Source of the DNA: Phorcus lineatus
Taxonomy: Eukaryota > Mollusca > Gastropoda > Trochida > Trochidae
Direction of reading: 5' to 3'
Assembly: GCA_921293015.1 (NCBI GenBank)
Contig: OV121092.1
Location: 4,780,001 to 4,844,000 of the forward strand
Length of the DNA stretch: 64,000 bases
Under the pieces are notes generated by a model. It saw only the letters and a program-made list of their open reading frames with translations, was not told the origin of the DNA and ran no database searches. Position numbers and translations under genes: made by a program. Below are positions 6,392-57,099 of the stretch, piece by piece (the first letter of the stretch is position 1; each line of letters begins with the position of its first letter).

Positions 6392-8503
6392 AAAGTTTTC
6401 TTTTTCAATCAACAATATTTTTCATATATACAAGTTTTCTGAATACAAACCCTATAATTCACCTCATACTTTTTCTCTTTTCAAAGAAACATCATGGGGC
6501 ACATAATGCTTTAAACATCAAAAGCTGACTTAAGAGGTTTCTTTGCTTAAGGATACTTGTTATTATGGTAATGGTGTACCTTTCAACGTTTGATAGCTAT
6601 TTTTTTAGGAAAGATTCATCTTTTAGAGTATTCCACCATGGCCTGAAGTATAGAGTTAATTACTTGAGACCCTGAGGATGTTATCACCTCAAGTCATACC
6701 ACACAACTGCACATTTCCTTAATTTATTCAAATGACATTGTGTACACCATTTTTATTTAGATTATACGAAGATATTTACTTAAAATCTTTTGTCAGCACT
6801 GACTCCAAATAATGAGCCCGTGCTGGGAAAAGCTATGGTTGTCGAGGGTTAAAATAAACATAGCCATTAAAGTATTTTCAATTATTTACAAAACCTGCCT
6901 CAATGTTGCGGATATTTGGAATTGTTTGCACTAAATTTGTTTTGCTACGGGTCAGTTCATTTGTAATTCGATATGCCGTGATACAAATAGAACAAATATC
7001 ATCGGCGAAAACTTCTCTTTCCAAGTGTAATATAGAGCGTAATACCAGCAATAAGGGAAATCTATCAGCAGATAATAACTTCGGGGGTTTTGGCCCCAAG
7101 CAATAAGTCCCACAGAGGTTATCCCTTAACGGCCTATTCTCTATCTCTAGAGGCTACATCTCTAAAAAGCCGAAATCTTCTGTAAAGGTACCTATGGGAA
7201 TGGTTAATTGCAAATTTGCTGAACCTTTGGCCCCTCATAAGCACACAAGGGGATGCACTAAAACATTATTTTCATCTTTTCCTCAAGAACGATAGATATT
7301 TTTTACAGGGGTGAAATCTTTTTCTCAGGTGTCATGATAAATTGTGACTATAAATCGTGGAGTTTGTGACTCTACGTTTCTAAATGAGGTTATGGCGGAC
7401 AATGCCCTAAAAGCCTACATCCATCCTTCCCAATGAACAAAACGGATAGAAAATTTTAATCTACTGTACTCCATCGCTAAATGGGCTAATAGCGTTTGTT
7501 TCATTCATCTAAGTGTTTTACAAATCCATTAAATCCCCGAATTATGTTTTATCTTCTGATGTTGTGATGTTGTGGTTTTTTTCATGTACTATACAATTTG
7601 TAACTTTTAGCCAAAAGGTTCTCAAATAGTCGAACTGATTTGAACAGCTAATTACATTTCCGAAATTAATGAAACCCTTTAGTTCTACAGATGTACATAT
7701 TTCGCATTTTCGACCCGGTAAAGCCATATACCAGTTGTAATAAAAACAGCCTCACTGCGAACCGTCTAAATATCGTACGGAGTTTTGCTGCTTTCATCAA
7801 TGGAATTAACTCTGTGATTGGATTAAATATATAACTTATTTTGGATACTCCTAACGTCTGTTTCCCTGTAACATATTTGGTATGCTAAATCATAAATCTG
7901 AAATGGTTGTAAAATGATACCGAAAAATTACAACAGGTTGTTATTTCACATTTTAGCAAGGGAATAAAACACATGATTCAAATTCCATAAGGAAACGGCA
8001 AAGAAAGTTTCAAGACTCTTCCCATCTTGTAATAAGGAACTACAGCTAGGGGAGAAATTTGGGCAACGTGGAGTGTCTTCCTCGGGATAGCGACGACACT
8101 AAAGGGTAACCTACAATAATCCAATAAAACCTTGCGTATAAGCCTAGTCTTATGTTTTTTAAAGAACGTTAACAGTGGGACATGTCAAGAACCCATCCAT
8201 TTCAAGGCAATATGTAAGTAATTTGCAACTACCTGCTGGATCAGTAAATGCAATGTTAAGTGCAAGAACCTTAAACTGTTAGAACATCCGGTTTGAAGTG
8301 GCGTCAAGGCGTGATCGATGCAATTAAGTTGCTGTCATCAAACTGGAATCATGCAAAGTTAAATCTTTACAACTATGGAAGGGCAAGAGATCTTCAAGGC
8401 AATACGTGAAGTGACCGTTGTTTATGACTGTATCGATTTTACTATTCGAAAAGTCCGAATGAAGGATAGTTATCTGAAGAAATACATACTGTACCCAAGT
8501 AGT
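6392..8503. other. Intergenic, nothing recognised
   Basis: The segment 6878-7106 is open on both strands, but neither frame has a recognisable motif or splice support. Confidence 0.4.
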
Positions 8504-24200: not shown

Positions 24201-27200
24201 TTGTAACTAGATCATTTACACTTTTAGAGAAGTTCATCGTATAGTTAAACAAAAGGCCAAGATATTTATATTGACTACTAACCTGGAGTCGTACCCCATT
24301 TAATACCCATTTTTCATTTGCTGATAATGGCCCGCCCCTTCTGAAAATAACTATTTTTGTTTTGTCATAGTTAACAGATAATTTCCATTCTTTTGTGTAA
24401 CGTTCTAAAATATTAAGTTGATTTTGTAATCCTATAACAGTGTCTGACACTAAAATGACATCATCAGCAAAAAGCAACATTAATATTTCAATAAAGTCCG
24501 GGAACATTTGAATGCCATGTTTTCCATTGTCAGCAATCTCGTAATATAATTCATTGATAAAAAATGAAAACAACATCGGGCTTAAAATACATCCCTGTCT
24601 TAGTCCAACTGGACAATCAAAATAGTCTGTAAGATCGCCATCACACCGAACACATGATTTTATGTTAGCATACATAGACTTTAAGATATAATACATTTTC
24701 CCACGAAATCCAGCCCTAAGTAAACAATACCATAACTTAGAACGATCAACAGAATCGAAAGCTTTTCTAAAATCGACAAATGCTACGAACAATTTGTGTT
24801 TTCGTCGTGAAAGACATTTCTGAATTATTGCAAATAATGTAAAGATGTGGTCTGAAGTTGAATATCCTTTTCGAAAACCGGCCTGAGTTTCTGGTATTAA
24901 ATCTCGCATATTTACCCAACTAGTTATTCTATTATTTAATATGGTTGTAAATATTTTGCCCAGAGTACTCATTAGTGAAATGCCTCTATAGTTGTCCGGA
25001 TCATCAAGCTTACCCTTCTTATGTAAAGGGACAATTATTGAAGTAGACCAATTTTTTGGAAACAAGCCATTATCAAAAACCCGGTTGAAACATTTGACCA
25101 AGAATGGCATGGTAATAGATACTGAACATTTTATCATTTCTATAACGATATCATCGGGACCCGCGGCTTTTCCGTTTTTAAGATGTGATATAGCATCTGA
25201 TATTTCCTTTTCTGATATTGTTGATTCTAGAATCAACTTATCCATATCTGTGTAAAATTCTGATGGTGAACTATACATGTCATCTAACATATCGTTATCA
25301 TGGTCGCTGTCAAAAACACATTCGTTGGAGAAGATTTTCTTAAAATGAATTAGCCACTCGGTTTTTGGAATGGGGTTTTGGTTAGACCGTCTATTTTGTA
25401 AGGACCGTACTTCTTTCCAAAATTTACCGGGATTTGTAATCGAACCATTAAGTCTAGTTTGCTTTTGCTTGCGTAGATCGGATTTAAATTTAAATCACAT
25501 CGTGCTGTATTCCTCAAGTAATTAATGTTTTTTTCTCCTTCTCTAAATGGTCCTTATTCAAGGCATATGTTTTACGTCATAAGCAGTAGATTCTTTACCA
25601 GAGACAAATTGTAGTGCACTGCTAAATTCAAAGACTGTGAGCTTGTCACAATGGATTTTCATTGAATTGAAAAAATTCCCCCTTCAGCACGTGCAGCAGT
25701 CAATATATATTTTACTGAATTATGCATTTACTGCCGTGTTGATAATTTCGAAGCTAACCTAATCGGCATCAAGTTCTCACACATTCCATCTTTCGGTGTT
25801 CAGAATTTGAGTAAATCACATCGTTTTCTCCAACATAACACAAAACGATGGCGCTATTACACAAGGTTTGAAAACGAATATTTCGCGATAATTTTGTTTT
25901 TAAAGGATACACGCGGGAAGAGTTCGAAATCTTTTCGTTTCGGTATTGACGTTGTGAAGATGGGTTGAGCGAAGCAAATTTACACAACTCGAATGATTAA
26001 AAGGTGTTCACAATTAAATGCCCGCAAAGAGTTTCACTAAAACGCGATTACTGTTTCTATGAGATTACTGTTTCTATGAATACGGATACTCTTCTTGAGT
26101 TAAATCATTATGGATAATAATGTTTTTTGAATGAAATAAGACTTGGGGGAAAAATAAGAAGAAGAAAATCAAGAAGTGGTACGGTGCCCTGAACAGGCGT
26201 TAGGAATATCAAACATTCAATTACATTTGTGTTTCATGAATTAAAGGACTATTCTGTATTATTTCCTTTAATGTCTAGTTATGCTATTCATTGTCACGAT
26301 TAACATTCAGGAAAGTTACATTCAAAATATGCAATATCGGTCTACAAAACCGGTATCTGCTCTGATTGTTTCGCCAAATCGAGATAACTTGGAAATTTAA
26401 AGTAAAAAACATTTAAAAAAACATGATAAACCTATGTTGTTATTTCTGAAGTATCAGGTAAATTGAAAAGCTTGTCATGTTTAGTCAAAATGACAGTCGA
26501 GAATTCAGATTGAGTCGAAACTCGAGACTCTACTACCATAAAAAGAAGTAAAGGGACCTGACGAGGTAAACATAACTGGTCTGATTGAACACTACCTCAA
26601 ACACTTTATATGTACAGGTGTTTCATCTTACCAAAAATGAAGAACTGCGTCTGCTGGACCATTGTGTTGATGTTGGGCCTGGGAACCCTATCATGTTTCC
26701 ATGTCATAGGTTGAAGGGCACACAACATGTGAAGCACAGAGAGGTAGGTAATCTCCTATTTATCATTCTAGAGTGATGTAATGGATAAGCCTTCTTGACG
26801 GGATGTTCTGATTGACTGTTTGTTCGATAAGTTCTCCACGAGACCCAATAGCTTATAGTTGTGTCGAGATGTGTTCTGGTCTTTAACAATTCTGTTCATT
26901 CCTCTCGTTATATTTGTATGTCCATCTTTCTCTTTTCCTGTTACTTTCTATACTGAACTGTCTATCCTATGGATTACAGCATCAACGTCCTAAGTACTTG
27001 AAATACTGAAGGCAAAGTAAACGAAGGAAGATGGCTTAACACCGATATCTCTTAACGTACATGTCAAGGATGTAGATGCGGAAAGAGGACGAATTCCGTT
27101 TCTTTTGAATTTGTCATTTCTATTCTTATACGAAGATTGCATTATCTTCAAAAGGTTAAAGATAAATTGCAAGTTAATGAAATATTCAAAACCTTTTATC

Positions 27201-28432
27201 TTTAACTGCGAGGGAAACGTAAAGGAATTTAAGTAAATCGTACCATTAAGGACGAACATTTTGGAGACGACGAGAGCACTGGTTGACAATACAACGTTTA
27301 ATACAGGACTGAAGGTTACAAGGACAAACCCGAACGCGTAAACATGCACTGCACGCACAAATTCATGGCGTATGCTACTGATCATCATTACACGGGAACA
27401 GATCATTACAAATATATTCAAGCAAGGACCATGATGTCACCTGATTAGCATAATTTACAATATATCCTTGTACATTGTACGTATATTTTGTTATAAATAC
27501 GCGTGTAATGCGATGTCAACGATCATATCGTTTCATCCCTGATGAGTCAATACTATTGACGAAATACTATTATCGGATTAAATTGATTCTGCGAACGACT
27601 ATGTGAAGTATGTTATATTTCATCTGTATGTGACCTTGCGTTTGAACTAATTCAACTTTAATCTTTGCTTGTAAGTAGAGTCTAACTTCGTTAAGCTCCA
27701 TATGTCAATTGCATATGTGTTACATGTAAAATGTTTATGTATATTGGCCTTTGGACTTCTTGCATAATGATAAAAGATTGATTGATCTACACCTACTCAC
27801 ACTCGCTAGTTTCAGATAAACTAACAAACGGAGTCTTCAAACCATGAGATCTGTTTTGTAAAATGCCATGTGAAGTTTATTCTTACCACTACAAATTAAT
27901 GTTAGTTAAGATGGTACAGCTATTGAAACTCTGGTCTGTACTCTTATGATACCTATCTTCCGAGTTACTGTCAGACATTAATTTGGGATCATAACTAGGT
28001 GTTATTCAATGGGCACAGTCACCTGTGAAAATATTGGGAAATAGGGCAAGGTAATTTTGACCTAAATGGAGGAACTGTAGCTACTGCAACAATGTTACTT
28101 GAAACATTTTAATTGATTTTACTTTTGGCTATTAAACAAGTATGGCGTGGCCCGTCTGCACCATTACAAGATCATTATGTCGTCATTGCAGTTTCAGTAT
28201 CACACAAATATGATACACTTGACTTATACAAAATAAAGTCGATCATAAGTTGCATAGTAACCAATATACTGTAGGTTTGTATATTGATTTTCTTCAGGAT
28301 CATTCGTTATACTCACCATGGGCCGGAAAATGTCTTGAATGGATCGAAAAATCGATGAGAGTTGGATTACGGGACTGCAGTGGCTCTCCACGACAGATGT
28401 GGATGTTGGAAGAACAAAAATTTAACTTCTGA
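14591..28432 (+). CDS. GALNT: Polypeptide N-acetylgalactosaminyltransferase, 11 exons, complete
   Basis: Joined exons 14591-15254, 15559-15712, 16526-16692, 16850-17014, 18555-18762, 19839-19956, 20894-21079, 21834-21962, 22653-22754, 26618-26743 and 28298-28432 total 2154 nt, giving 717 residues plus stop. Family knowledge: such type II Golgi enzymes transfer GalNAc from UDP-GalNAc to Ser/Thr, starting mucin-type O-glycans. Seen: signal anchor (about 20-38), polar stem (about 39-220), catalytic domain (about 222-597) with FRNEAWS, DSH (Asp376, His378), [23 protein letters not shown] and GH (His510), then a ricin-B-like lectin domain (about 598-717). All junctions are GT/AG and keep frame. 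The protein is longer than the usual roughly 560-640 residues because of the stem. It reads closest to the GALNT11 type from memory, but I would not fix the orthologue. An ATTAAA at 28657 may serve polyadenylation. Confidence 0.95.
15559..15712 (+). CDS. GALNT: GALNT exon 2: start of catalytic region
   Basis: The exon starts after TTGTCCAG and ends before GTCAGT in phase 2. It encodes the conserved entry to the luminal catalytic region: GQNGTPVEI, then [19 protein letters not shown] and the beginning of the DPRC motif. The NxFN..SDRIS..R pattern is a family hallmark, and this join fixes the phase of exon 1. Confidence 0.93.
15750..16018 (-). mobile_element. 5'-truncated SINE in GALNT intron 2, with TSD
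   Basis: The element at 15764-16004 is a minus-strand SINE lacking its tRNA head; it starts at TGTCTGCAGTAGAGAA in element sense. Its tail TCACCTCACCTTACATCACC lies toward 15764. GATCTTATTAAGGT stands on both sides (15750-15763 and 16005-16018), a perfect 14-bp target-site duplication. Truncation plus duplication fits target-primed insertion by a LINE enzyme. Confidence 0.93.
16526..16692 (+). CDS. GALNT: GALNT exon 3: UDP-binding start of GT-A fold
   Basis: The acceptor is ACTCCAG and the donor CATG|GTATTT (phase 1). It encodes [19 protein letters not shown] and then [15 protein letters not shown], followed by [12 protein letters not shown]. The SVVI.F.NEAWS and ILVDD motifs form the first nucleotide-sugar-binding strands of this family. 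The usual His in FHNEAWS is Arg here. Confidence 0.95.
16850..17014 (+). CDS. GALNT: GALNT exon 4: metal-binding DxH motif
   Basis: The acceptor is GATTTCCAG and the donor CTACAG|GTACGA (phase 1). The exon encodes [20 protein letters not shown] and ends with [14 protein letters not shown]. Asp376 and His378 match the DxH pair that binds manganese in the family. A GGTGAGG-rich tandem repeat begins about 20 bases after this donor. Confidence 0.96.
17026..17360. repeat. GGTGAGG purine-rich tandem repeat in intron 4
   Basis: An irregular array of units like AGGTGAGGTATGGTGATTTG begins about 12 bases after the exon 4 donor and runs to about 17360. The + strand is almost all purine plus T. Reverse-sense CTCACCTCACCTCC follows at 17387-17400. 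About 13 GGTGAG words match the 5' splice-site consensus. The unit resembles the SINE tail nearby (ATGTAAGGTGAGGTGATTTG at 15765-15784), which suggests its origin. Confidence 0.85.
17640..17915 (+). mobile_element. Degraded MITE in GALNT intron 4
   Basis: CAGCTCCTTCC, AATGAGACGACTTGC, CAGCAACAGCGGCACAACCC, ACGACATTTCATTGGCT and GCCGTACGAGG follow in the same order as in the MITE at 48208-48548. The ends are worn and the outermost inverted repeats are lost. Confidence 0.82.
18555..18762 (+). CDS. GALNT: GALNT exon 5: middle of catalytic domain
   Basis: The acceptor is CATTTCAG and the donor GATTAG|GTAAAC (phase 2). It encodes [20 protein letters not shown], then the GGFNW motif and a W.RPDVSER..P stretch, matching the segment between the DxH motif and the GalNAc-T motif in the family. 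It follows a 1.5-kb intron holding the GGTGAGG repeat and a degraded MITE. Confidence 0.95.
19839..19956 (+). CDS. GALNT: GALNT exon 6: Gal/GalNAc-T motif
   Basis: The acceptor is ATATCCTCAG. The exon ends AGG|GTAACC in phase 0, chosen over AG|GGTAAC because only it joins in frame to exon 7. It encodes [16 protein letters not shown], then [18 protein letters not shown], the strongest signature of this family, including the acidic residue next to the active site. Confidence 0.96.
20894..21079 (+). CDS. GALNT: GALNT exon 7: end of catalytic core
   Basis: The acceptor is GTTGAAAAG and the donor GATTTG|GTGAGT (phase 0). It encodes [20 protein letters not shown], then [15 protein letters not shown]. 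His510 in VGHVF corresponds to the third metal ligand of the family. The frame is also open upstream of the acceptor, but the join to exon 6 fixes the true border. Confidence 0.95.
21834..21962 (+). CDS. GALNT: GALNT exon 8: linker to lectin domain
   Basis: The acceptor is TGGTTCCAG and the donor GGACTT|GTAAGT, both phase 0. It encodes [20 protein letters not shown] and then [11 protein letters not shown]. The GDVS.R..LR..L.CKSF.WYL.NVY pattern marks the end of the catalytic domain in the family. Confidence 0.95.
22001..22084 (+). mobile_element. Foldback remnant of the MITE
   Basis: ACGTATTTGAATCC with CGCTGATCCAGCTCCTTCCA, then GAATTAGAATACGCTGATGG with AGCAGGATG, is a left and a right terminal repeat of the MITE joined with the interior missing. 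It lies directly before the fuller copy at 22108 in GALNT intron 8. Confidence 0.75.
22108..22429 (+). mobile_element. MITE copy in GALNT intron 8
   Basis: The left end (TGCTACATCAGCGTATTTGA) and right part (GGCTCGAAAGAGATCAGGGT) are inverted relative to each other, as in the copy at 48208. The interior keeps AACAGCGGCACAAC, CGACATTTCATTGGCTTAAA and CCGTACGAGGGAT. The outer right end is disrupted (GATTCTAATACCTAGGATG). No transposase frame is present, so it is non-autonomous. Confidence 0.88.
22653..22754 (+). CDS. GALNT: GALNT exon 9: lectin alpha repeat
   Basis: The acceptor is GTGTTTCAG and the donor CGACAG|GTAATT, phase 0 at both ends. It encodes [20 protein letters not shown] and then [14 protein letters not shown], the first beta-trefoil repeat. 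The sugar-binding Asp of the usual CLD motif is Lys (Cys607-Leu-Lys609), which may weaken GalNAc binding by this repeat. Confidence 0.9.
23145..25700 (-). mobile_element. 5'-truncated LINE antisense in GALNT intron 9
   Basis: A non-LTR retrotransposon with an open reverse transcriptase frame (next entry). Its 3' end on the minus strand is GGGCCGGAGGCCTTAAATAC, then AATAAACTCTTTGACTTGAC near 23145-23160, with no long poly-A. Upstream of 25492 the coding similarity continues in other frames to about 25700 (for example [12 protein letters not shown]), so the 5' part has frameshifts. No endonuclease domain remains. Jockey/CR1-like by general look, but the clade is not settled. Confidence 0.88.
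23272..25492 (-). CDS. LINE reverse transcriptase ORF, endonuclease missing
   Basis: The frame is open for about 740 codons between stops; the first in-frame ATG shown is at 25290 (672 residues). Counting from there: RT finger and palm motifs ([15 protein letters not shown] about 100-113, [17 protein letters not shown] about 134-150, [11 protein letters not shown] about 171-181, [13 protein letters not shown] about 229-241) and the catalytic FADD at 274-277. Next come a thumb-like part ([21 protein letters not shown]) and a C-terminal CPLC...H...C knuckle. Family role: copies element RNA into DNA at a nicked target. Without the N-terminal endonuclease it should not move on its own. Lack of internal stops indicates a young insertion or recent truncation. 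Confidence 0.92.
26618..26743 (+). CDS. GALNT: GALNT exon 10: lectin beta repeat
   Basis: The acceptor is ATGTACAG and the donor AGAGAG|GTAGGT, both phase 0. It encodes [20 protein letters not shown], then [16 protein letters not shown]. The CVD at 647-649 keeps the Asp expected in a working repeat, but the QxW motif is QHV. It follows a 3.9-kb intron carrying an antisense LINE. Confidence 0.9.
28298..28432 (+). CDS. GALNT: GALNT exon 11: lectin gamma repeat and stop
   Basis: The acceptor is TTTTCTTCAG. The exon encodes the last 44 residues: [20 protein letters not shown], then [13 protein letters not shown] and TGA at 28430-28432. The gamma repeat keeps the QxW signature (Gln706, Trp708) while CLD is CLE. 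The end matches the usual C-terminal position of the lectin fold. Confidence 0.92.
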   Translation, partial: DHSLYSPWAGKCLEWIEKSMRVGLRDCSGSPRQMWMLEEQKFNF

Positions 28433-39569: not shown

Positions 39570-39776
39570 TCAATGTATATCTTTCAGGCAAAGTCGCTTT
39601 CTCTCTTTACGTTTTTGACACCGAAGGAGTAAATCTTCCCATACCTGAAGATTAATTAGGAGTTTGTCATCGTAGATCACGCACTGTAATAATAAATTTT
39701 CTGCGATTTCGTAAAGATGAGATAAACATTCTTGTACAGATGCACATAAATGAGTGCTTTTGAAATGATGTTTGGT
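39570..39776 (-). pseudogene. Exon-like block conserved with units A and B
   Basis: After TTGTTTTTAG, a good acceptor, 68 codons stay open to TGA at 39570-39572. Parts read LCASVQECLSHLYEIAENLL, then LQCVIYDDKLLINLQVWEDL. A CAG|GTATGG donor lies inside. In units A and B (43411-43570 and 50704-50860) the same protein pattern can be followed (SVQEC, QCVIxDE, LINPKVWE), but with a 1-base insertion and a stop. Preservation of amino-acid pattern across copies suggests a former exon; no family is recognised and none of the copies is proven active. Confidence 0.35.
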
Positions 39777-40681: not shown

Positions 40682-43600
40682 CTATGCGCCGGGAAAGAGG
40701 TAAATCTAAAAGGCAATGCGAACATAAATGGTACACAAGGACCTGACATCAATCAGTTTTCAAAAAATATGATAGTGATAACAAGAACCGTAATAATAAC
40801 GTTAATAATAGCATATGAGATATGCATATCCGATCTTCTTATTATGTGGTTGTACACTAGACAATACACAATAAGTTTGGGACGTTCCTTATTTAGTGAC
40901 TTACTTTATCTATTTATTAATCAATGAATATATTATTTCTTAAAACTTAAATATACACATACAAATTTTGACAATGATATCCGCAGAATTTTGTGACATT
41001 CCAAAGTTATAACACAATTTAGAAACTGATCTCCTTTCGGTTTTCTAATGAAACCATATGACTTCTTCATAATCATTACCAAATGTTATGGTCAGCTCCG
41101 TGTGAACTTTAATTTGTTATAGCAGTCTGAAGTGTTCATATTGGAAGTGAAGAAACCTCATATCACCTGTGGTCCAGACACACTTCGTAAAAGAGAGGCG
41201 GAATTGTTTGTTATTAATTCCTTTTTGGATGCGTGCCTGATAATGAGCTCTATACATCATTTCATGAAAACAGTTCAGTAACATTGAACACAAAGTGTTT
41301 TGTAAATCTCGGAATTTCTTAAAACACTTCACTTGGCACAGATAAATGCTAATTACTTGCATCTTGTTGATTATTCATACATATTTTTTCCCTCTAAATA
41401 TCACTATATATGTCGTTGGTTTGATGAAGCAGGAAGGTTCACCTGCATGTGCATTGTAGTAAGTGTCGATTGGGAGTCCCATCTCAAAATTGTACATTTT
41501 AGCGCATTCTCAATTTAGCCTATAACTAAGCAGACGTGGCAAAAAACAAATAATGCTTTCTACAATAACTACTGTGGCGGGTAAACCATAGGGGAACTGT
41601 CTTTATAAATACTTACTTCTGAACGCTTACAGTGATGTTGAGATTGTTGATAGTGTTTAATACAGCGTCAGTCTGCTTCGATGATTTCTCATAGCTGTCT
41701 TATCTTCAGTCATAGGCTGTTTGATGAAGGTGATTGAAGAATTATTGCCGGCATGAAAATCAATGATTAACTAAATCTGGATCTTATTCTGTTGACTTGG
41801 TTCTTGCTTGAATTGTTTTCACGATTACCAAGCCGATGTCATGATAAAATACACGAAATTCACATGTAGATAGCTAACCTTTGGTCTGACTTTCTTAGAA
41901 ATAATTTTATTCCAAGACCTCAAGTTTGATTTACAAAGTTATTCAAAGTTGATCGCCTTTATCTCTTTCACTGGAACCATACACAAGTAAATTTCCGAAA
42001 CTGTCTTCAAGCATGTAGTGGTGAGAGATTTATCTGCACGAAACAAGCCATTCTTTCACCACTTCAGTCTCGATAATGTATTTGTGTCGCGTTCTTTCGA
42101 GTGAAATTGTAAGATAGTATGTGGCAAATATTTACGTATTTAGATTCAATGTCAAGTGAAACTTCAACTCTTTAGATGAAGTTAAGAAATTTCAGTTTGA
42201 GGGACATTCAAATAAAATGCGTTAATTTTGCGTAGTGGTGTCACTCTATTATCAAATCTGTTGAGGTCATTTGATGTTCATTACATAACTGAATTGACTG
42301 ACGTAAATCCACCTAAACGTATCCACATTGCGTTTACATGAACGTGCATCTCGTGACTTGACTGAAGTGAAATGTCTGCTTTCCCTCAGATCCATAAGCG
42401 TAAGATAATGAGGTAGAGCCATCAGAGTTTGTGACCTACACAAAACCCAATTTGACAGATGGAGAGAAGACACTCGAGATAATTAACATACAGTATGTCA
42501 AGTCTACATGTTGTCTGGTAAAAGTGTTGACAATCGACCTAGCAATATACAAAGCGACAACTCCACTACATCTACCACGGTGGTCAAAGCGGCGATTTCT
42601 TATACACTTGAAACATTTGTGTTTTGAAACAGATGTTCAAAATCCGAAGCAATTGTAAACTTTAAGGGATAATAGTAAAACATATTGTACCTTACAATTG
42701 TTTATAACATTTTAAATCGTAAAGTATAATATTAAGATAGAGAGATCGCAGATGTAAACATTGGAATATTAACCTCTTCTCAATTACCTGTCAGTATTAC
42801 AGGTCGGTGTCATCATGTAAATTGTGTCTAATCTCTCGTTTATGATATAACAAATGGACTAAATGCTGCGACTGGCACATGGGTATTCCGTTATGAAAAG
42901 TTCTATTTCCACCGTAACGATATTAAAATGGGATATCAAAAGCAACTGAGGACATTATCTTCCGAAAAGTGCTTTGAAAGAACAACATAATGAGTTTGCA
43001 TACAAATGAAAAATCTTACGTCATCCTATATTTAAATCACATTTGTACTTTCATTTGTTGATAACCAATGGTACCTTTCACATTAATGTGTCAAGTGTTA
43101 TTGTCGTAAATTCTACTTAAAATAAGAACAACAATGCTACTTTTCAGTTTATCTAATGTATTCCATTACATATGATTCTACTGGCAACAACATTTAATGT
43201 TAATTAATTTAGATATTGTGGAATCGATATGAGAACACTATAAAGACATCAACACATTTCCTCGATTATTGACAAATAAATTTGATTTCCTTTTAACTCA
43301 GGTTAGCCCTTTTCAGCATTACGTTAAAGACGAAAACTGATTAAGATACCACATGATTTACCATTTTAAAAAATGCTAGAGTTTGATTTATTAGAAGCTT
43401 TGTCTACACCAAACAATATTTCAAAAGTACACATTCGTTGGATCTAATTTATGTGCATCTGTACAAGGAATGCTTTTCATCTATATGTCAAATGGTAGAC
43501 AGTTTATGATTCCAGTGCGTGATCAACGATGAAAAAAACCTAATTAATCCTAAGGTTTGGGAATATTTCTTCTCCATCCATAGCGACTAAAACTACTTCG

Positions 43601-44589
43601 TGTGTCATGAATTTATGAAACTAACGGTTCAATAGTCCGACGTCCCTTTACATATACTTGATCCATTTATTTCTTCCGGATTTGATTGAAGTTCTTGAAA
43701 TAACTCAAACGAAAATAGATAGAAGAGGTAATTGCTTTCACTCACAAAAAAGTTTGTCGTATACAAACTACTTTATGGCCTTGATGTTTTACTTTTGAAT
43801 TAATGAGAAGTTCTAAAACGAAAGCATATACTTTGAGCATAAAAGGCTACACTTTGTCGACTTGTATCGTTAACCATTAACAACATGGTTTGTAGAGGAA
43901 AACAATTTACTCTTCTTGGCTGATTTACAAGATTGGCCATATTGTTTTGGCTTCAAATTTTTTTTTTACTTTTGAATGTTAATGAGATGGTCTACGCCAA
44001 TAGCCTATACTTGTACGCACAAAAGAGTACACTTTAACTCTCGTTAAATGAAAATTTCACCTGTTCATCTTTGAAACTATGTATATTTCTTTGTTATATA
44101 TTTCTATGCTCATGTACCAACGTCGGTAGCGTTTTTTGAGAATAAATGAATTTGAAAGAACAGTTTACTCTTCTTGGCTGATTAACAACATATATATTGT
44201 TTTGAATTAAGATAAAACTTAAAATCTCAAGAGAAACGAAAAGGGATAGAGTATTGACAAAGGCAGTTACTAAATCTTGAAATTAAAAGAAAACAGTGCT
44301 AAATTAATTCATTGAGAATGTAATGAAAGATAACGAAAGGGTTGATTTACTTGAAAAAATTCTTGTCCTGACACTTTTGCATGTATTTAGACCTTTATAC
44401 CCAACACACCTAATAACGTCTTAACGTAGTTTCTTAAGACATAGCCTGACCAAGGGGTAATGCGATAGTTTTTAATGTCTAATGATCAGTAAAAATAGTG
44501 GTGGATCACCATTATGTGATCCTTTCCCTTATTATTGAAATCCAAAAATATATGGTAGAGAATTATCGTTGTTCATGATAGTTAAATTG

Positions 44590-45190
44590 TTTGAAAAGGA
44601 CTATAAAATGAATATTTTGCGGAATAGAATCCTATCATCCACTGATACTGCACTTGGTGAACGAGGAAGTGTTAGAATGTATAAGCACGGTATCATCAAA
44701 GTTGTAAGATTTTGGAATAGATTGTAAGAAGAAGCAAAACAGCCAGATACTTTGATTCATTGCTTTGTAAACATATTGAAATAGGGAAAACATGGGTATT
44801 GCCTGTTAAATATACTCTTTTAAGCTCGGATTTTGGTATAACTAGGAAAACTTGAACATTTTTTATAAGATGATTGTGAAAATACTTAAATGAAGTTAAG
44901 AGATATTTAACCTAAAAACAATAACAATATTTGATTTCAATTCATTCATTCATTTCAAGAAGGAATTACACAACATTAAGATTTCAAAAAGTGTTTTAAG
45001 TAAATATACGTGGTAAAGATTTTAAGTATGTCTATTGCAAAGTGTATGGAACACGGGAAAAAGATCAATAACAAAGTTTTTTTTATCTTATCGTCATCTG
45101 AGTACAAGATATTTACCGTCTTTATATTCTAAATACCCATCACATTTAAGGTATCATCAGAATAATTATAATGAACTGTAATGTTTGATT
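44590..45190 (+). pseudogene. LINE polymerase relic inside unit A
   Basis: Translation of 44655-44729 gives LGERGSVRMYKHGIIKVVRF then WNRL and a stop. This aligns without gaps to [20 protein letters not shown] then WIKL of the intron 9 LINE. Further on, LSYRHLSTRYLPSLYSKYPS lies where LINEs have the FK...YL region. Many stops intervene. The matching part of unit B (about 51870-52370) has lost about 100 bases. A weak copy lies at about 36830-37080. Confidence 0.4.
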
Positions 45191-48100
45191 TACTACATTT
45201 TTTAAAGCTCTAAATCCTCTAATATATATCTTATTATCCGAACTTTATGGCCACTGTATTATTGGTCTCTTGGCCAATGAAATAAACTCTGTATTGTAAT
45301 CATAGTGTGCACTATTTTAAGCGTTTGAAACAAGTAGTCAAGATAATAATGTCTTAGTATGAGGGAAAGACTTTCAATACTTCAAACTCACAGATTATCC
45401 AGTTATGAAGCAGATAAAATGTTCAAGAAGGTTTCTGGTCCAAATATCATTCCACCAATTTAACGTAGACGTCACAGGCCCGTGGTAGACGTCTTATAAC
45501 CATTGACCAGAAGACAAGCTTATTATATTATGTCTTGCTGAAACACTTCAAATCTTTCAATCAGGGTATTTGGTTCATGTATACACAGTTCACAAACAGT
45601 TTCCACCATTAAGTCTTAATTACAAGGGGAAAAAAACATTTGTGAAAGAAAATCAAGATGATTTATTTACACAGGTATTTCGAATGTAAGATTTCATCAA
45701 GGGACTAATATTGAGTCTTGTAGTAAATTTTGATTAAACGGTTATAAGTTAAACCTCAGAGGAATATGAAAGAAAAAAAATCAATAATAGAGTTGGAAAT
45801 ATGATGAATAGATTTTAGAGAGGCAATGAAAATGATGCATTATGAGTATCAGGAAAATCATTTGAGCTATATTCAACTGAAATAGATTAAAGGACCTCAG
45901 GAATGAAATGTCATATATGAACATTTACGACACTCTTTAAGTTATGATAGACAATATGGGTTAACATGAAGATATAATTTGCGTTTTTACACAAATATTT
46001 TGAATTGAAATTTCATAAGAAATTGTGTTGCACAAATTCCTGCAAAATATTTTGCTGTGGTATTATGAGTATCACCTAGAGTTTGAGAAACATGTTTTCT
46101 ACATCTTCTAATACAACATGATGTTAGTATGAAAAATGTTTAACAAGTATATCTTAGGTGAACACCATTCACATTATATTTGCACAAGAATGGAATTTTT
46201 TTGTTGTTTTCATTCATCTGCATTCATTAAAAAAGTAAGACAATGAATTACGTTGTTCATCAAACTAACTGAAATATTTCCTCAAATAGTTTAAGTTTAC
46301 TAAAAAAGCTTAATTGGGGGTATTTCATTGAAAATGCATTATTCGAGGTATGGTTATAGGATGTTGTTAATCGTAACGATTGTAAACCCCTTTATGCCGA
46401 TAATCAGAAATCAGATCTAGTTTACTTACTCATTGACTTTTGTGCCAGCAATAATGCTTCATCAGACAGTTTCTGATCGAAATTAAGAAGTAATCAACGA
46501 TTCAGATTGATCTGTCTTGGTCAATATTAACAGTTTCTTTGCAAAAAGGATACAAAAGCTGGTTGTTCTATGTTTACTCGTTGCATTAGTTTTAGGCTAC
46601 AAGAATGTGATTTTGTTTGATTTCTGCGGAAACTCTGTTTTTCAAGAACATGCTAGTCTTAGTTGATGATATGTTTTTTAAGTCAATTATTTTCTATCCA
46701 AGAACTATTAAATGGTATTATGTTCAAATTATTCGCATCCAAACACCCTAATATATATTCAATTACTATTCATTAAGGACCTTCTATTATTGAATATCAC
46801 AAATGAGATATTCCATATATCATATAATTAGACATTTTGCATAAGTATTATTATTGAACTTCGCTGAATGTTTTACTGTAGTAGGCTGATGTATGAATTG
46901 TTATCTGTATCGTTCTCTACAAGGTAATTGTTTGCTGAAACTTTCAGCACTTCCTTTTCTCAAAATAAACATAATAATATGGCTTATTCAAGCTTTAACT
47001 TTGATAATGTCTGGCTCATTGGAGAATAAAAGCAGAGCTAAAGACTAATTATGTTCTAAGGTATGCCTTTTCCTATGAAAAATGTGTTTGTGATATTTTT
47101 CTACGCAGTCAGGTTAAGTTGCTCTATTACAAAACAGAATTAATGGAGCCTTCTTGAAAGGCTTTTAAGCATTGGTCCCCAGGAGGTGATGTCAGTTTTG
47201 TCTTCTTTGCAATGAATGTCATGTATTAATGTAATATAGAGAGAAAACTTTTCTTCGCAAATATCTTCTTAAGTAGGAACGTATTAGTGACTATTATTAA
47301 CAATCAAAGCCATGATTTATAGAATAAGTTTTAGTTTTCATATTTGATACACAGCTTCTACAACGGTAACAATATATGTATTTTGTCAGAAAATAGATAA
47401 ATGCTTCAATCCTAAACAGTTGAAATTAACATCTAAATTCACTGTAATAATTTTTTAAAGATCTATCTCCAAAATTGTTTTGAAACTTAAGGTGTTCGTC
47501 GATCTCATTGAAATCGGTATCGCAGGTTCTTGATTGTGACCTTTCACCTTGTTTTGATTAGAAGAAATCAGAGGTATGGTGATGGCTCGATTCAGCTATG
47601 ATCCCTATGGAACATAACCCGAATCAGAAATACAGGTAAGAATGAAGGTTTTGAACTGTCTTTATTGAGATTGAGTGCTGCTTATAAAGAATAAAGACTA
47701 TCGTCTCTGAAATGTCAACAAATAGGTTGCATTTTACATTAATGTAGCAAAGAACTTCATTAATACATTCTAATGAAAATTAGTTCTTGTAATGTTATTC
47801 CTAATGATAATAAACGATTAATGCCTTCATGACATTTAAAGGTGTTATCATCTTGATCTATTCGGAATTCTTATTAGCTAAGCCTGAATGGAAAATGTCA
47901 GCTTTAATAGCATTTGCTCCCTTGGAAGTTGATGTAAATAGGCTAGTATTGAGTATCTCTTATCTGACATCTCCCGCAAAGGAACTTGTGATTCTTAACC
48001 ATTTATCAGTATCCACAAAAAGATGAAATACACTCCGACACCATTATGGAATCTTTTTATTGCTTCGCTACAATATCATTCGAAGACACCAAATTGACTT

Positions 48101-48207
48101 ATAAGTAAATAAGAATAAGCCGCCACTTAATGGACAAACCATTGAACTAATTGCTGTTTCTTAAAGGAAGAGTTTGTTTATCAAGGAAGTGACCATTAAC
48201 TCATATT

Positions 48208-48548
48208 CATCCTCCTTCATCAGTGTAATTGAATCCGCTGATCGAGCACCTTCCATAAAACCTGATATTCTTAAAGCCAAAAGCCTCGCATCGCTAGCTA
48301 TCTAACCAGCCAATGAGACGACTCACAACCAGCAACAGCGGCACATCCCGGATGGAAATGTCCCTTTACTTCAAAATAGTAACTTCAAGCTCCTTTAATA
48401 ACGACATTTCATTGGCTTAAAAATAACAGGTGAGCACAGCCAATAACATCAAGCCGCACCAGCCGTACGAGGGATGTGGCTCGAAAGAGATCAGGGTATA
48501 TGGAAGGAGCTGGATCAGCGCATTCAATTACGCTGATGTAGCAGGATG
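48208..48548 (+). mobile_element. Full-length MITE, about 341 bp, in unit A
   Basis: CATCCTCCTTCATCAGTGTA with ATTGAATCCGCTGATCG at the left is inverted as CGCATTCAATTACGCTGATG with TAGCAGGATG at the right. The inverted repeats run on through GAGCACCTTCC / GGAAGGAGCTGG and the AAAGCC / GGCTCGAAAGAG region, about 70 bases in all. The interior has no transposase. No clear target duplication can be read. It is a non-autonomous DNA element and the reference copy for the family in this window. Confidence 0.88.
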
Positions 48549-48723
48549 TTTTAGATAAGTTAGACAGATTATGACAGATATTGGTCAGCTATTAGAACAT
48601 TCTTAATTTTTACCCAAATTTTGGTGAAAACAAACTTGCATCAGAGATTTTATTGTTGCCTCCCCGGCTCCAAATGGATTAAAAGTGAAACAGGGTTTCA
48701 TTCATAGTCGCGGATAGTGTTTA

Positions 48724-49112
48724 TCATTCTTTTCCAACAGAGGTAGTTCGTCATATAGGGGGCGGAAAGTGCAGTGGTTAGCGCGTTCGGCTTCGGATCA
48801 GGAGGTCCCTGGTTTGAATCCCGCCAGGGGCTCGGCAACTTTGTCTGCAGTAGAGAACTGTTCTACACGCAGTCAGGTTTGGGTCCAATGCTACACTGAA
48901 ATTCAGCGCAGTACCACCCATGGTTTGCTAGTTCCAGCCGATGCTCGTAGGTTTCACTGCAATGCATAGCCACAATGATGTTGCGGGCTTTCTCCCTGCA
49001 CTAATACTAGCAGCCGCGATATAAGTGAAATAATCTTGAAATCGGCGTTAAACACCAACTCACCTCCGTCATATATTTCTATGATGGAGCTGCCTCTGTT
49101 GGGAGAGAATGA
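48724..49112 (+). mobile_element. Short foldback element interrupted by a SINE
   Basis: TCATTCTTTTCCAACAGAGG at the left (48724) is the inverse of CCTCTGTTGGGAGAGAATGA at the right (ending 49112). The flanks GTGTTTA (48717-48723) and GTGGTTA (49113-49119) look like a 7-bp target duplication with one change. Unit B has the empty site (ATTGTTTAATTG near 56711-56722). Without the SINE the element is only about 70 bases long. Confidence 0.85.
48749..49075 (+). mobile_element. tRNA-derived SINE with 9-bp TSD
   Basis: The SINE at 48758-49066 has the head GGGGGCGGAAAGTGCAGTGG (A box AGTGCAGTGGTTAGCG), B box TGGTTTGAATCCC, the body CTACACGCAGTCAGGTTTGG and the 3' end GTGAAATAATCTTGAAATCG then GCGTTAAACACC. 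CGTCATATA lies on both sides (48749-48757 and 49067-49075). It sits in the centre of the short foldback element. The 3' end resembles SINEs common in bivalves; that comparison is from memory. Confidence 0.92.
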
Positions 49113-49648
49113 GTGGTTATTTGATATTCAAAATTATTCATCAGTAGTTAAGGTTCAGGTTTGTCAATGGATTCTGAGTACTTTTGGTTTAAATCTATAT
49201 GTGGTTGATTTGAGTGTCTCATTATAAATATAAACATTAAGGGTAAACAAATAATGTTGTAACTAACACAATGATGTATTCACAATATCTCAATAAATAA
49301 ATATGTAAATCACAGTCAGAAAGAGTGGTTAGTAAAGGGTAATTATGCATTGTTCGTGATCATCTGTCTTTGAATAGTCATTATCTGACTTATCTTAAAA
49401 AGAAAGCTTTAATTGTTACGCAGTTTGATAAACACATTTTTCAGTTCTTTTCGTCATAGTATTTAAATCATAAAGTCATTCAGATGTAAGTTCACAAGAG
49501 CAAACAGTCACCAAATAGTGAATTGATGTGCTCTACCGCTCTTTCGAAATCAACGTTAATAAAGCTACCAAAATCGTAAGAATACTTGTCTACGATATCA
49601 ATGAAATACTGACGTAACTCCACCTAAACGTATCCACGTTGCGTTCAC

Positions 49649-49957
49649 ATGACTCGTGACTTGACTAAATTGAAAAGTCTGCTTTCGATCAGATCCATAA
49701 CCGTTGAGGTAGAGGCATCAAAGTTTGTGACGTACAAAAAACCCAATTTGACAGATGCAGAGGAGACACTCGAAATAATTAACATACAGTATGTCAAGTC
49801 TACATGTTGTCTGGTAAAAGTGTTGATAATCGAACCAGCGATATACACAGCGACACCTCCACTACATGTCCACGGTCAAAGTGGCGATTTCTTATACACT
49901 TGGAACATTTGTGTTTTGAAACAGATGTTCAAAATCCGAAGCAATTGTAAACTTTAA
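49649..49957 (+). pseudogene. Open 102-codon block of unit B, broken in A
   Basis: From ATG 49649 the frame gives RDLTKLKSLLSIRSITVEVE, then PNLTDAEETLEIINIQYVKS and IIEPAIYTATPPLHV. The same stretch in A (42340-42658) keeps NLTDGEKTLEIINIQYVKS but has indels and stops upstream. The opposite strand is also open over about 200 bases in B, so the coding strand is uncertain. No domain is recognised. Confidence 0.25.
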
Positions 49958-52900
49958 GGGATAATTGTAAAACATATTGTACCTTACAATTGTTTATAAC
50001 ATTTTAAATCGTAAAGTATAATATTAAGATAGAGGGATCGCAGGTGTAAACATTGGAATATTAACCTCTTCTCAATTACCTGTCAGTATTACAGGTCGGT
50101 GTCATCATGTAAATTGTGTCTAATCTCTCGTTTATGATATAACAGATGGACTAAATGCTGCGACTGGCACATGGGTATTCCGTTAAGAAAAGTTCTATTT
50201 CCACCGTAACGATATTAAAATGGGATATCAAAAGCAATTGAGGACATTATCTTCCGAAAAGTGCTTTGAAAGAACAACATAATGAGTTTGCATACAAATG
50301 AAAAATCTTACGTCATCCTATATTTAAATCACATTTGTACTTTCATGTGTTGATAACCAATGGTACCTTTCATATTAATGTGACAAGTGATATTGTCGTA
50401 AATTCTCCGTAAAATAAGAACAACAATGCTACTTTTCAGTTTATCTAATGTATTCCATTACATATGATTCTACTGGCAACAACATTTAATGTTAATTAAT
50501 TTAGATATTGTGGAATCGATATGAGAACACTATAAAGACATCAACACATTTCCTCGATTATTGACAAATAAATTTGATTTCCTTTTAACTCAGGTTAGCC
50601 CTTTTCAGCATTACGTTAAAGACGAAAACTGATTAAGATACCACATGATTTACCATTTTAAAAAATGCTAGAGTTTGATTTATTAGAAGCTTTGTCTACA
50701 CCAAACAATATTTCAAAAGTACACATTCGTTGGATCTAATTTATGTGCATCTGTACAAGGAATGCTTTTCATCTATATGTCAAATGGTAGACAGTTTATG
50801 ATTCCAGTGCGTGATCAACGATGAAAAAAACCTAATTAATCCTAGGGTTTGGGAATATTTCTTCTCCATTCATAGCGACTAAAACTACTTCGTGTGTCAT
50901 GAATTTATGAAACTAACGGTTCAATAGTCCGACGTCCCTTTACATATACTTGATCCATTTATTTCTTCCGGATTTGATTGAAGTTTTTGAAATAACTCAA
51001 ACGAAAATAGATAGAAGAGGTAATTGCTTTCACTCACAAAAAAGTTTGTCGTATACAAACTACTTTATGGCCTTGATGTTTTACTTTTGAATTAATGAGA
51101 AGTTCTAAGACGAAAGCATATACTTTGAGCATAAAAGGCTACACTTTGTGGACTTTATCGTTAACCATTAACAACATGGTTTGTAGAGGAAAACAATTTA
51201 CTCTTCTTGGCTGATTTACAAGATTGGCCATATTGTTTTGGCTTCAAATTTATTTTTTACTTTTGAATGTTAATGAGATGGTCTACGCCAATAGCCTATA
51301 CTTGTACGCACAAAAGAGTACACTTTAACTCTCGTTAAATGAAAATTTCACCTGTTCATCTTTGAAACTATGTATATTTCTTTGTTATATATTTCTATGC
51401 TCATGTACCAACGTCGGTAGCGTTTTTTGAGAATAAATGAATTTGAAAGAACAGTTTACTCTTCTTGGCTGATTAACAACATATATATTGTTTTGAATTA
51501 AGATAAAACTTAAAATCTCAAGAGAAACGAAAAGGGATAGGGTATTGACAAAGGCAGTTACTAAATCTTAAAATTAAAAGAAAACAGTGCTGAATTAATT
51601 CATTGAGAATGTAATGAAAGATAACGAAAGGGTTGATTTACTTGAAAAAATTCTTGTCCTGACACTTTTGCATGTATTTAGACCTTTATACCCAACACAC
51701 GTCCTAAGACATAGCCTGACCAAGGGGTAATGCGATAGTTTTTTAATGTCTAATGATCAGTAAAAATAGTGGTGGATCACCATTTTGTGATCCTTTCCCT
51801 TATTATTAAAATCCAAAAATATATGGTAGAGAATTATCGTTGTTCATGATAGTTAAATTGTTTGAAAAGGACTGTCAAAATGAATATTTTGCGGAATAGA
51901 ATCCTATCATCCACTGATACTGCACTTGGTGAACGAGGAAGTGTTAGAATGTATAAGCACGGTATCATAAAAGTTGTTAAATATACTCTTTTAAGCTCGG
52001 ATTTTGGTATAACTAGGAAAACTTGAACATTTTTTGTAAGATGATTATGAAAATACTTAAATGAAGTTAAGAGATATTTTACCTAAAAACAATAACAATA
52101 TCTGATTTCAATTCATTCATTCATTTCAAGAAGGAATTACACAACATTAAGATTTCAAAAAGTGTTTTAAGTAAATATACGTGGTAAAAATTTTAAGTAT
52201 GTCTATTGCAAAGTGTATGGAACACGGGAAAAAGATCAATAACAAAGTTTTTTTTATCTTATCGTCATCTGAGTACAAGATATTTACCGTCTTTATATTC
52301 TAAATACCCATCACATTTAAGGTATCATCAGAATAATTATAATGAACTGTAATGTTTGATTTACTACATTTTTTAAAGCTCTAAATGCTCTAATATATGT
52401 TATTATCAGAAACGTTATGGCCACTGTATTATTGGTCTCTTGGCCAATGAAATAAACGCTGTATTGTAATCATAGTGTGCACTATTTTAAGCGTTTGAAA
52501 CAAGTAGTCAAGATAATAATGTCTTAGTATGAGGGAAAGATTTTCAATACTTCAAACTCACAGATTATCCAGTTATGAAGCAGATAAAATGTTCAAGAAG
52601 GTTTCTGGTCCAAATATCATTCCGCCAATTTAACGTAGACGTCACAGGCCCGTGGTAGACGTCTTATAACCATTGACCAGAAGACAAGCTTATTATATTA
52701 TGTCTTGCTGAAACACTTCAAATCTTTCAATCAGGGTATAGTAATGACGTTACGGACTGGTAATTGGTTCATGTATACACAGTTCACAAACAGTTTCCAC
52801 CATTAAGTCTTAATTACAAGGGAAAAAAAGAAAATCAAGATGATTTATTTACACAGGTATTTCGAATGTAAGATTTCATCAAGGGACTAATATTGAGTCT

Positions 52901-54959
52901 TGTAGTAAATTTTGATTAAACGGTTATAAGTTAAACCTCAGAGGAATATAAAAGAAAAAAAATCAATAATAGAGTTGGAAATATGATGAATAGATTTTAG
53001 AGAGGCAATGAAAATGATGCATTATGAGTATCAGGAAAATCATTTGAGCTACATTCAACTGAAATAGATTAAAGGACCTCAGGAATGAAATGTCATATAT
53101 GAACATTTACGACACTCTTTAAGTTATGATAGACAATATGGGTTAACATGAAGATATAATTTGCGTTTTTACACAAATATTTTGAATTGAAATTTCATAA
53201 GAAATTGTGTTGCACAAATTCCTGCAAAATATTTTGCTGTGGTATTATGAGTATCACCTAGAGTTTGAGAAACATGTTTTCTACATCTTCTAATACAACA
53301 TGATGTTAGTATGAAAAATGTTTAACAAGTATATCTTAGGTGAACACCATTCACATTATATTTGCACAAGAATGGAATTTTTTTGTTGTTTTCATTCACC
53401 TGCATTCATTAAAAAAGTAAGACAATGAATTACGTTGTTCATCAAACTAACTGAAATATTTCCTCAAATAGTTTAAGTTTACTAAAAAAGCTAAATTGGG
53501 GGTATTTTATTGAAAAAGCTATATTCGAGGTATTGTCATAGGATGTTGTTAATCGTAACGACTGTAAACCCCTTTATGCCGATAATCAGAAATCAGATCT
53601 AGTTTACTTACTCATTGACTTTTGTGCCAGCAATAATGCTTCATCAGAAAGTTTCTGATCGAAATTAAGAAGTAATCAACGATTCAGATTGATCTGTCTT
53701 GGTCAATATTAACAGTTTCTTTGCAAGAAGGATACAAAAGCTGGTTGTTCTATGTTTACTCGTTGCATTAGTTTTAGGCTACAATAATGTGATTTTTGTT
53801 TTTCAAGAACATGCTAGTCTTAGTCGATGATATGTTTTTTAAGTCAATCATTTTCTATCCAAGAACTATTAAATGGTATTATGTTCAAATTATTCGCATC
53901 CAAACACCCTAATATATATTCAATTACTATTCATTAAGGACCTTCTATTATTGAATATCACAAATGAGATATTCCATATATCATATTATTAGACACGTTG
54001 CATAAGTATTATTATTGAACTTCGCTGAATGTTTTACTGTAGTAGGCTGATGTATGAATTGTTATCTGTATCGTTCTCTACAAGGTAATTGTTTGCTGAA
54101 ACTTTCAGCACTTCCTTTTCTCAAAATAAACATAATAATATGGCTTATTCAAGCTTTAACTTTGATAATGTCTTGCTCATTGGAGAATAAAAGCAGAGCT
54201 AAAGACTAATTATGTTCTAAGGTATGCCTTTTCCTATGAAAAATGTGTTTGTGATGTTTTTCTACGCAGACAGCTTAAGTCGCTTTATTACAAAACAGAA
54301 TTAATGGAGCCTTCTCGAATAGCTATTATTGTCCCCATAGGTATGTCAGTTTTGTCCTCTTTGCAATGAATGTCATGTATTATAGGTAATTGGGAGAGAA
54401 CATTTGTTCGCAAATATATATCTTCTCTAAGTGGAACGTATTAGCGACAATCAACGCCGTGATTTATAAAATAAGTTTTAGTTTTATATATAATACACAA
54501 CTTGAACAATGGTATTTTGTCAGAATAGAAATATTTGCTTCAATCTTAATTAATTTCTTACAGTTAATATTGAAAATGTAAATGTACTGTATAACTTCTT
54601 GAAAGATATCTGAATTCATTTTAAAACATAAAGGGTTTTTCGAACTCATTGCAATAGGAAACACGGGTCCCTGTCTGTGACATTTCATCTTGTATTTTTT
54701 AGAAGAAATCAGAGTATGATAAAGGCTTGATTCACCTTACCCCTTGCCCTCAGCGATGTGAGGGTGAGTTTGAGTGTTGCTTATAGAATTTGAATTTTCA
54801 ACTAATCCGTTACATTTTACATGAATGAATAGAGAACTATTACATTTTATAGATATTCTAATGTATATTAGGTCTAATAATGTGTTTCATATTGATAACT
54901 ATATACGATTATCGCTGTCCTTACCTTTTAGGACTTTGTCTTCTTGATCCGTGAGGCTT

Positions 54960-55192
54960 ATCATTCAGAATTCAAATTAGCTGAGGAGTCTAAATATCAG
55001 ATTATAGCATTAAAGCTCTCTTGCTCCTTTGGAAGTTGATGTAAATAGGCTCGTTTTGTCATTTTCGTATCTGCCTTCTCCTGTGAAAACCCGCAATTCG
55101 TCTTCCAGATGTTTGTTAGCCTTATGAAGTTTCCTTTTCGTATTTCGCTGATGTTTTACCGCCTTCGCTTTGCTTTGAGGTTTTGAAAGCAT
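54960..55192 (-). pseudogene. Lys/Arg-rich frame in unit B with partner in A
   Basis: Minus-strand frame from 55192: LSKPQSKAKAVKHQRNTKRK, then GEGRYENDKTSLFTSTSKGA. In unit A (about 47840-48030, minus) TSLFTSTSKGA is kept with a synonymous Lys change and the frame runs on 18 codons, but upstream is a stop. The two copies are thus broken at opposite ends. No family is recognised, and chance cannot be excluded. Confidence 0.2.
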
Positions 55193-57099
55193 TTTAAAAT
55201 GTTACCAATTTCATTAAATATCACTTCGCTAATGTCGGCGCAACATGACATTCTTTACTCTCTTCCCAGGATGTACATGTAAAGATGACAATCTTATGAA
55301 GTTGGCAATTACGCAAACTCGTTGGTCTTCACTTTGCATTTTCGAGTAATATTTTCAATTTTAACCAGATTAACAATTGTTTTTAATATCAAGTCAGTAA
55401 ACCTGACCAAATAAATATACATTATCGACCTGTCTAGTTCCATCACGACATAACCTCGTTATTGCCCTAATAGAGGACTAATTTCCTTAAAATGAAACAA
55501 AGCAAAGTCATCGAAGGACATTACAGAATTAGACTTACTTGTGTCATTATATTAGTCTGTTTTAATGTGATATGAGCTCTTTCCTTTTGAATGTGATGAT
55601 TATTGATATCATTTATCTCCTTAAGATAGTATTAAATGTCCAAGTGAACGTCATCTTATAGCAAATTTGTTGTAGACAGTTCAAAAGACCTCGGCATAGC
55701 CGAGACTATGTGTCTTCTTTCCAAAGCCGTCAATATTTTTTTCAAGACCTTTTCTCAAACAATACTTAATAATCTTCATCATCACCAAATTAGTTTTCCA
55801 GGTTGTGTGAATTAAATGAGTTATTTTCGACATTTACAAGTAAAAAAACATGATTTAATAAGATTACATTAGTTAAAACAACTATGTTGCATTGCTTACA
55901 AAGTGATAGTTTCTAACAAAGTCAACAATTCACTATTGAACTCATGAAAATTCATGCTACTTCACACTTGACTTTTGTCAAATGATAAAAGCTCATTAAG
56001 GTAAATAGGAATAACAGTTACCATACGATTTTTAAAACAATAAAGTTTATATGAAACATCATTTTTTTCAAAACATCGCATTTACAATAACACCAGCATC
56101 GTCATAGTTATGGTTAGTTTGGACGCTCTTGAAGGGTTTTACCAATGAAATAAGGTTTAAGTTGTGCCTAGTTTTCGAAAATCGTAATTTGGAAGCATTC
56201 ACAATCAGAATGCCAGATATTAGATGAGAGTGTGCAAATGAATTATACAAGTATTACATATATACTACATGCTAATGGTGAGTTTTGCTTCAGCAACAGA
56301 AGTTCTACAGAAAACAGTCAACAGTGGTGAAGCAACGCACCAGAAAGTAACTGAAAGTAAGCCTTAGTAATGACAAAATTGAAACACATAGAAACAATAA
56401 ACAAGAAACAAATATGAATTCCATACTCTTTAAGATGATTAGTCCCAGGACGCATTTTAATGTAATTAGGACTTCCTTGCATATCATTCCAAACATTGAT
56501 TTTTACGATCAGTAAGGCCAAACACTGATCAAATTATGACAGATATTGGTCTCCTATTAGATAATTCTTAAATTTTACCCAAATTTGGGTGAAAACTACA
56601 TGTATACTTGCATCAGAGATTTTATGGTTGCCTCACCGCCTCCATATGGATTCATAGTGAAACATGGTTTTATTCCAGGACTTCTAGTAGAGAAAAATAG
56701 TCGCTGATATTGTTTAATTGATATTCAAAATAATTCATCAGTAGAAACATTCCATTTAGGTTTGTCAATTAATTCTGAAAAAATTTGATTTAAATGTATA
56801 TGTGGTTGATTTTAGTGTCTCATTATAAATATAAACACTAAGGCTAAACTATTAATCGTGTAAATTACAGAATGATTTTTTCACGTTATGTTATTAATTA
56901 AATATGTGTTATCACACTCAGAAAGAGTTGTTAGCAAAGGATAATGATGCATTGTTCGTGACCATCTGTCTTTGAATAGTCATTTAAGTCTAGATTGAAA
57001 ATTCTGACATACTCTTTAAAAGAAGCTGGTTGTGAAGGGCGCTTTGATTATTACGCAGTTTGATAAACACAATTGTTCACTTCTTTTTCTCAATATGGT

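Follow-up and report, generated by a model that had tools for sequence, protein, structure and literature searches.

Self-alignment of a 64-kb window of the Phorcus lineatus genome (contig OV121092.1; positions below are those of the window, the whole stretch analysed, unless the contig is named) uncovered a pair of direct tandem repeats, unit A (42299-49458) and unit B (49610-57095, with a right end accurate to a few bases), both read on the forward strand. The window contains 33.6% G+C and no N. BLAST comparison of the window with itself paired 42290-44705 with 49602-51977 and 44804-47594 with 51975-54734, along with two further collinear pieces (48565-48703 with 56530-56675, and 49114-49382 with 56711-56984), and MAFFT alignment was used together with BLAST to delineate the units. 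Each contains a left arm (A 42299-42611, B 49610-49903), a near-identical core (A 42612-47094, B 49904-54255), a proximal right arm (A 47095-47975, B 54256-55085), and a distal part.

Past 47975 the arms share islands only, at 48565-48703 of A (counterpart 56530-56675 of B) and at 49114-49458 (counterpart 56711-57092), with 118 and 341 aligned bases that are 87% and 85% alike, respectively; in unit B these islands occupy 56530-57095. Unit B also includes a stretch of approximately 1.4 kb (55086-56529) without a detected counterpart in A, which carries 47976-48564 instead, including a dispersed repeat. Present in unit A only is an insertion resembling a short interspersed nuclear element (SINE; 48758-49066, forward strand), which, as read from the sequence, is bounded on both sides by the direct repeat CGTCATATA (48749-48757 and 49067-49075). 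Six relatives within 304 kb share its end at base 49066, and our own reading of these letters suggests a tRNA-derived SINE; ARAGORN listed no tRNA. A spacer of 151 bases (49459-49609) separates the units and has no homology to either outer flank exceeding that of shuffled sequences.

Three levels of divergence along the pair

Mismatches were counted on a gap-aware realignment with cheap gap extension of A 42299-47975 against B 49610-55085, which gave 25/294 differences in the left arm, 60/4325 in the core, and 127/765 in the proximal right arm, the last with many indels. The Bayesian information criterion was lowest for a model of three segments (1534.3; one segment 1795.6, two 1561.1, four 1539.1), and this model places its edges at 42611/42612 and 47094/47095. 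Kimura two-parameter distances are 0.090 for the left arm, 0.0142 for the core (61/4339, counted to 47108), and 0.190 for the right arm (126/751, 47109-47975), and each pair of segments differs by Fisher's test (left vs. core, 3e-11; right vs. core, 3e-63; left vs. right, 6e-4). In 150-column steps of the MAFFT alignment, identity is 90-92% in the left arm (42341-42640), 94.7-100% across 42641-47113, where 28 of the 30 steps reach at least 97%, and 84% past 47113, dropping to roughly 72-75% by 47970. The right-arm figure from the realignment is if anything low, given identities of ~72-84% with MAFFT and 68%, gaps included, in a genome search. Ten indels of 1-101 bases, 185 bases in total, separate the two cores, the largest being 101 bases at 44703-44803 of A that are missing from the B core. 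Inside the diverged left arm, 52 bases (42479-42530) are identical between the units, whether by chance or as a small patch that was conserved or converted.

These results bear out the original prediction of direct tandem repeats with a near-identical core and diverged flanks, on the evidence of self-BLAST, MAFFT, and the three-segment model alike; its coordinates agree with the realignment edges to within tens of bases, and the plot of identity that it proposed gives uneven identity at three levels. It had also described the sides as far more diverged than the core. Both arms do exceed the core, to which we add that left and right arms differ in age: divergence is lower on the left than on the right (Fisher p as above), so the arms have no one common age.

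Copies of the pair were sought in one assembly of P. lineatus (957,807,699 bases, ~958 Mb, in 74 contigs), with scoring restricted to the best candidates. The published assembly, xgPhoLine1.1, is slightly larger, at 957,853,961 bases in 78 scaffolds according to the part of its description consulted (PMC10444997). Two pieces of the core (42610-44610 and 44900-47113), the proximal right arm, the distal part of B, and the right flank of B served as queries. Full-length matches to both pieces were found at A and B only, and partial matches elsewhere belong to three repeat families. The proximal right arm likewise matched A and B only, the distal part of B matched itself and the corresponding islands of A, and the flank to the right of B matched itself and two stretches of 45 and 53 bases. 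Neither core piece, nor the proximal right arm, nor the distal part of B yielded a third copy by which the exchange could be polarised.

Since a core divergence of 1.4% could equal heterozygosity, the pair might be two haplotypes of one locus that were placed in tandem during assembly. Such false haplotypic duplications (PMC9516828, as far as the portion consulted describes them) share with this locus near-identical tandem sequence at a level possible for alleles, and the problem did exist in this genome, where curation took out 83 haplotypic duplications (PMC10444997, part consulted). The locus differs from them in its diverged arms with private insertions and in lying on an N-free HiFi stretch. 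From the same part of that description, the assembly was built with hifiasm and purge_dups from 32-fold HiFi reads and has a contig N50 of 4.9 Mb and 0.6% duplicated BUSCO genes. Alleles would moreover need a 9-19% difference in both arms against 1.4% in the core, together with a SINE that only A carries and 1.4 kb confined to B, and the right flank of B has no second copy apart from the two short matches. We consider an assembly artefact unlikely.

A related proposal is that unequal crossing over brought two haplotypes of deep divergence together in tandem; the arms would then preserve old allelic divergence and the core would be a stretch common to the alleles. This accounts for every divergence level without conversion after the duplication, but the core would still require allelic exchange with two sharp edges, and 9-19% in the arms would be deep for alleles; a heteroallelic origin seems improbable to us.

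As a control, 304 kb of contiguous sequence was examined, and one other large tandem duplication was found, upstream of the window on the same contig (contig positions 4676939-4699917 and 4699918-4716172). Its BLAST pieces are 84-94% alike. When it is divided into 63 windows of 150 bases, 7 show identity of at least 97%, scattered and with a maximum of two in a row, vs. 28 of 30 steps in the core described here, although the two counts come from different aligners. This upstream duplication is patchy and lacks a uniform block; therefore, old patchy tandem duplications occur nearby, none with a block like the core.

Repeats within the core and the question of constraint

The core of A contains a 117-base insertion at 44040-44156 (forward strand) that resembles the 3′ tail of a long interspersed nuclear element (LINE), a label taken from its repeated tail and common 3′ end rather than from a database assignment. 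The core of B carries the same insertion at 51331-51447, identical to that of A across all 117 bases. A consensus was built from the 40 best-matching of 110 candidates, of which 38 rows were family copies and 26 were used; these 26 differ from it at 0-3 positions each (mean 0.77). The tails of A and B depart from it by the same three substitutions in 116 positions, two of which occur in 0/26 copies and one in 1/26, and their extra base is also present in two of the copies. Because tail and substitutions are shared at the same site, the element was inserted once, before the cores parted. Had it the age of the right arm, 11.0 substitutions would be expected against the three seen (P of three or fewer, 0.005); an age equal to that of the distal right island predicts 9.5 (P 0.015). 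On these counts the tail looks younger than the right arms and not clearly younger than the left, which makes it a supporting, not a decisive, test. Around it, a 33-base direct repeat (43901-43933 and 44159-44191, 91% alike, spacing 258 bases) has more similarity about it and is perhaps an older small tandem duplication that the LINE-like tail entered.

Older dispersed repeats are also present. One at 44923-45292 (forward strand) has relatives 64-79% alike among the matches listed and differs between A and B at 7/368 positions; a second at 45577-45720 (forward strand), with relatives 73-84% alike among the matches listed, differs at 1/132. A core stretch that matches 39631-39754 at 82% differs at 1/122, and the LINE-like tail at 0/117. 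Taken together, repeat-derived DNA of the core has 9/739 differences, vs. 51/3586 in the remaining core (Fisher p 0.86), and is far more alike than the right arm (127/765, p 3e-29) or the left (25/294, p 4e-8).

Because repeat-derived DNA matches between the units as closely as the remaining core does, constraint accounts poorly for the likeness. Purifying selection acting since the original duplication would explain the likeness itself and nothing further, and short exons or regulatory DNA could lie in the core; it would also have had to hold alike old repeats whose listed relatives are 64-84% alike, to admit ten indels of 1-101 bases, and to accommodate a recent-looking LINE-like insertion at one site in both units. 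This explanation was rejected on the equal likeness of repeat-derived DNA and the shared LINE-like insertion, and we regard it as highly unlikely. The likeness of the core looks recent and not a product of constraint.

A conserved gene in the core was also considered and rejected: 10 of the 27 stop-to-stop frames of the region (at least 60 residues) were scanned against Pfam without a match at E up to 1, a result that leaves short exons possible, Rfam had no match in the whole window, and no tRNA was listed. The earlier statement that the core shows no intact gene agrees with these searches. A function of the core is neither needed nor indicated.

The abrupt edges of the core might also suggest a mobile element that entered each unit independently at one and the same site. 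Both pieces of the core used as queries have full-length matches at A and B only, none of the listed repeats of at least 16 bases lies at the core edges, and the core itself contains older repeats and a LINE-like fragment with shared substitutions. A transposon was rejected on the absence of further full-length copies of these two pieces and of edge repeats of that length, and we give it next to no weight.

Possible routes to a probably homogenised core

The differences between the two cores are spread evenly, apart from a cluster of seven within 45 bases (46311-46355) that overlaps a short 28-base tandem repeat in B. Without this cluster, the ratio of variance to mean is 0.84-1.17 for bins of 50-400 bases (permutation p 0.24-0.59), with no excess clustering. 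The longest stretch free of differences between the cores spans 435 bases (p 0.10 when the cluster is included, 0.17 when it is left out). One homogenising event of ~4.4 kb fits these even differences better than many short tracts of varied age, in a test whose power is limited by its 60 differences.

Together, these observations are best explained, in our judgement probably correctly, by an old tandem duplication whose middle was homogenised later by gene conversion or by two unequal crossovers. On this account, a segment of ~7 kb of the snail chromosome would have been duplicated in tandem long ago, and the copies would have drifted until their arms differed by ~9-19%, gaps aside, each gaining insertions and deletions of its own. 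Much later, the middle 4.4-4.5 kb of one copy would have replaced that of the other, through either interlocus gene conversion or a pair of unequal crossovers in which a unit was gained and then lost, and the middles may since have gathered ~1.4% differences and ten indels. The pair, its abrupt edges, the three divergence levels, the even spread of core differences outside the 45-base cluster, the shared LINE-like insertion, and the equal likeness of repeat-derived DNA are observed; we infer that copying of the core postdates the duplication, that it took one event, and which recombination route it followed. Later homogenisation of the core is well supported, and it is compatible with a single long conversion, with repeated earlier exchange that maintained the core but from which the arms escaped, and with unequal crossing over that added and then removed a unit.

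The original prediction of a gene-conversion tract inside an older duplication stands in that the core likeness appears younger than the arms and is not attributed to constraint; gene conversion proper is not established, since an identical sequence would result from two unequal crossovers that pass through a stage with three units. In concerted evolution by unequal crossing over, tandem units expand to three, contract, and leave the same mosaic. The snail locus shares with that process its adjacent direct repeats and differs from it in having two units only, with a third copy not found for the parts searched. With interlocus (ectopic) gene conversion between segmental duplications, as described in the consulted parts of three sources (PMC10172114, PMC3924818, PMC4132178), it shares a sharp-edged tract of low divergence within older paralogues. 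It differs in being known from one assembly and in having arms 9-19% diverged, a level at which a human survey found few events (PMC10172114). Its kilobase length resembles that of the events in this survey, which average 6.26 kb. Among the listed publications on gene conversion in molluscs and gastropods, no title or abstract opening concerns this locus.

Several observations weigh against homogenisation of the core in this manner. When the 45-base cluster is retained, evenness in 50-base bins becomes borderline (p 0.057). The test on the LINE-like tail is weak against the age of the left arm (5.2 substitutions expected, P 0.23), and its 26 copies are biased to good matches, one of them carrying a substitution shared by A and B. 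Left and right arms are unequally diverged, which leaves the duplication without one clear age. Most conversion tracts measured in experiments span 50 to several hundred bases (PMC3924818), and in duplications more than 10% diverged the human survey found few events, 325 in number (PMC10172114), whereas the snail arms are 9-19% diverged. Because experimental tracts are short and human events beyond 10% few, a 4.4-kb tract within arms so diverged is unusual, unless earlier exchanges had kept the core similar.

The narrower proposal of a single conversion of at least 4.4 kb, between units whose flanks were already 9-19% different, would involve a tract longer than experimental ones and partners more diverged than in most events of the human survey, and we hold it possible but doubtful. 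If true, it would suggest that ectopic repair in this snail is tolerant of mismatch, or that repeated earlier exchange had preserved the likeness of the core but not that of the arms. For homogenisation of the core by whichever route, known processes suffice and no new mechanism is called for, and the locus would be an ordinary, well-preserved case. It offers a clean instance of probable homogenisation in apparently non-coding tandem DNA of a mollusc, with sharp edges, an even core, and an insertion that can be compared with its family, and it cautions that the most similar part misleads the dating of duplications.

Neighbouring genes and repeats

Upstream of the tandem pair is a GALNT-type gene, whose frames extend over ~19.8-28.4 kb; ~14 kb separate its last recognised exon from the pair. 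Exons of this polypeptide N-acetylgalactosaminyltransferase occupy 19843-21106 and 28325-28402 on the forward strand. The frame at 20780-21106 has no Pfam match but matches solved GALNT structures (E 1e-17), and an exon with PTMAGG and WGGEN motifs and a lectin-like QxW exon on the same strand presumably belong to the GALNT gene, to judge from these motifs. On the reverse strand at 23272-25494, a 740-residue open frame matches the Pfam reverse transcriptase family RVT_1 (E 6e-35) and is probably a non-LTR (long terminal repeat) retrotransposon; by its position, it falls in an intron of the GALNT gene. Nearer the start of the window, at 5968-6394, a 143-base unit is present three times, in copies that are 98% alike.

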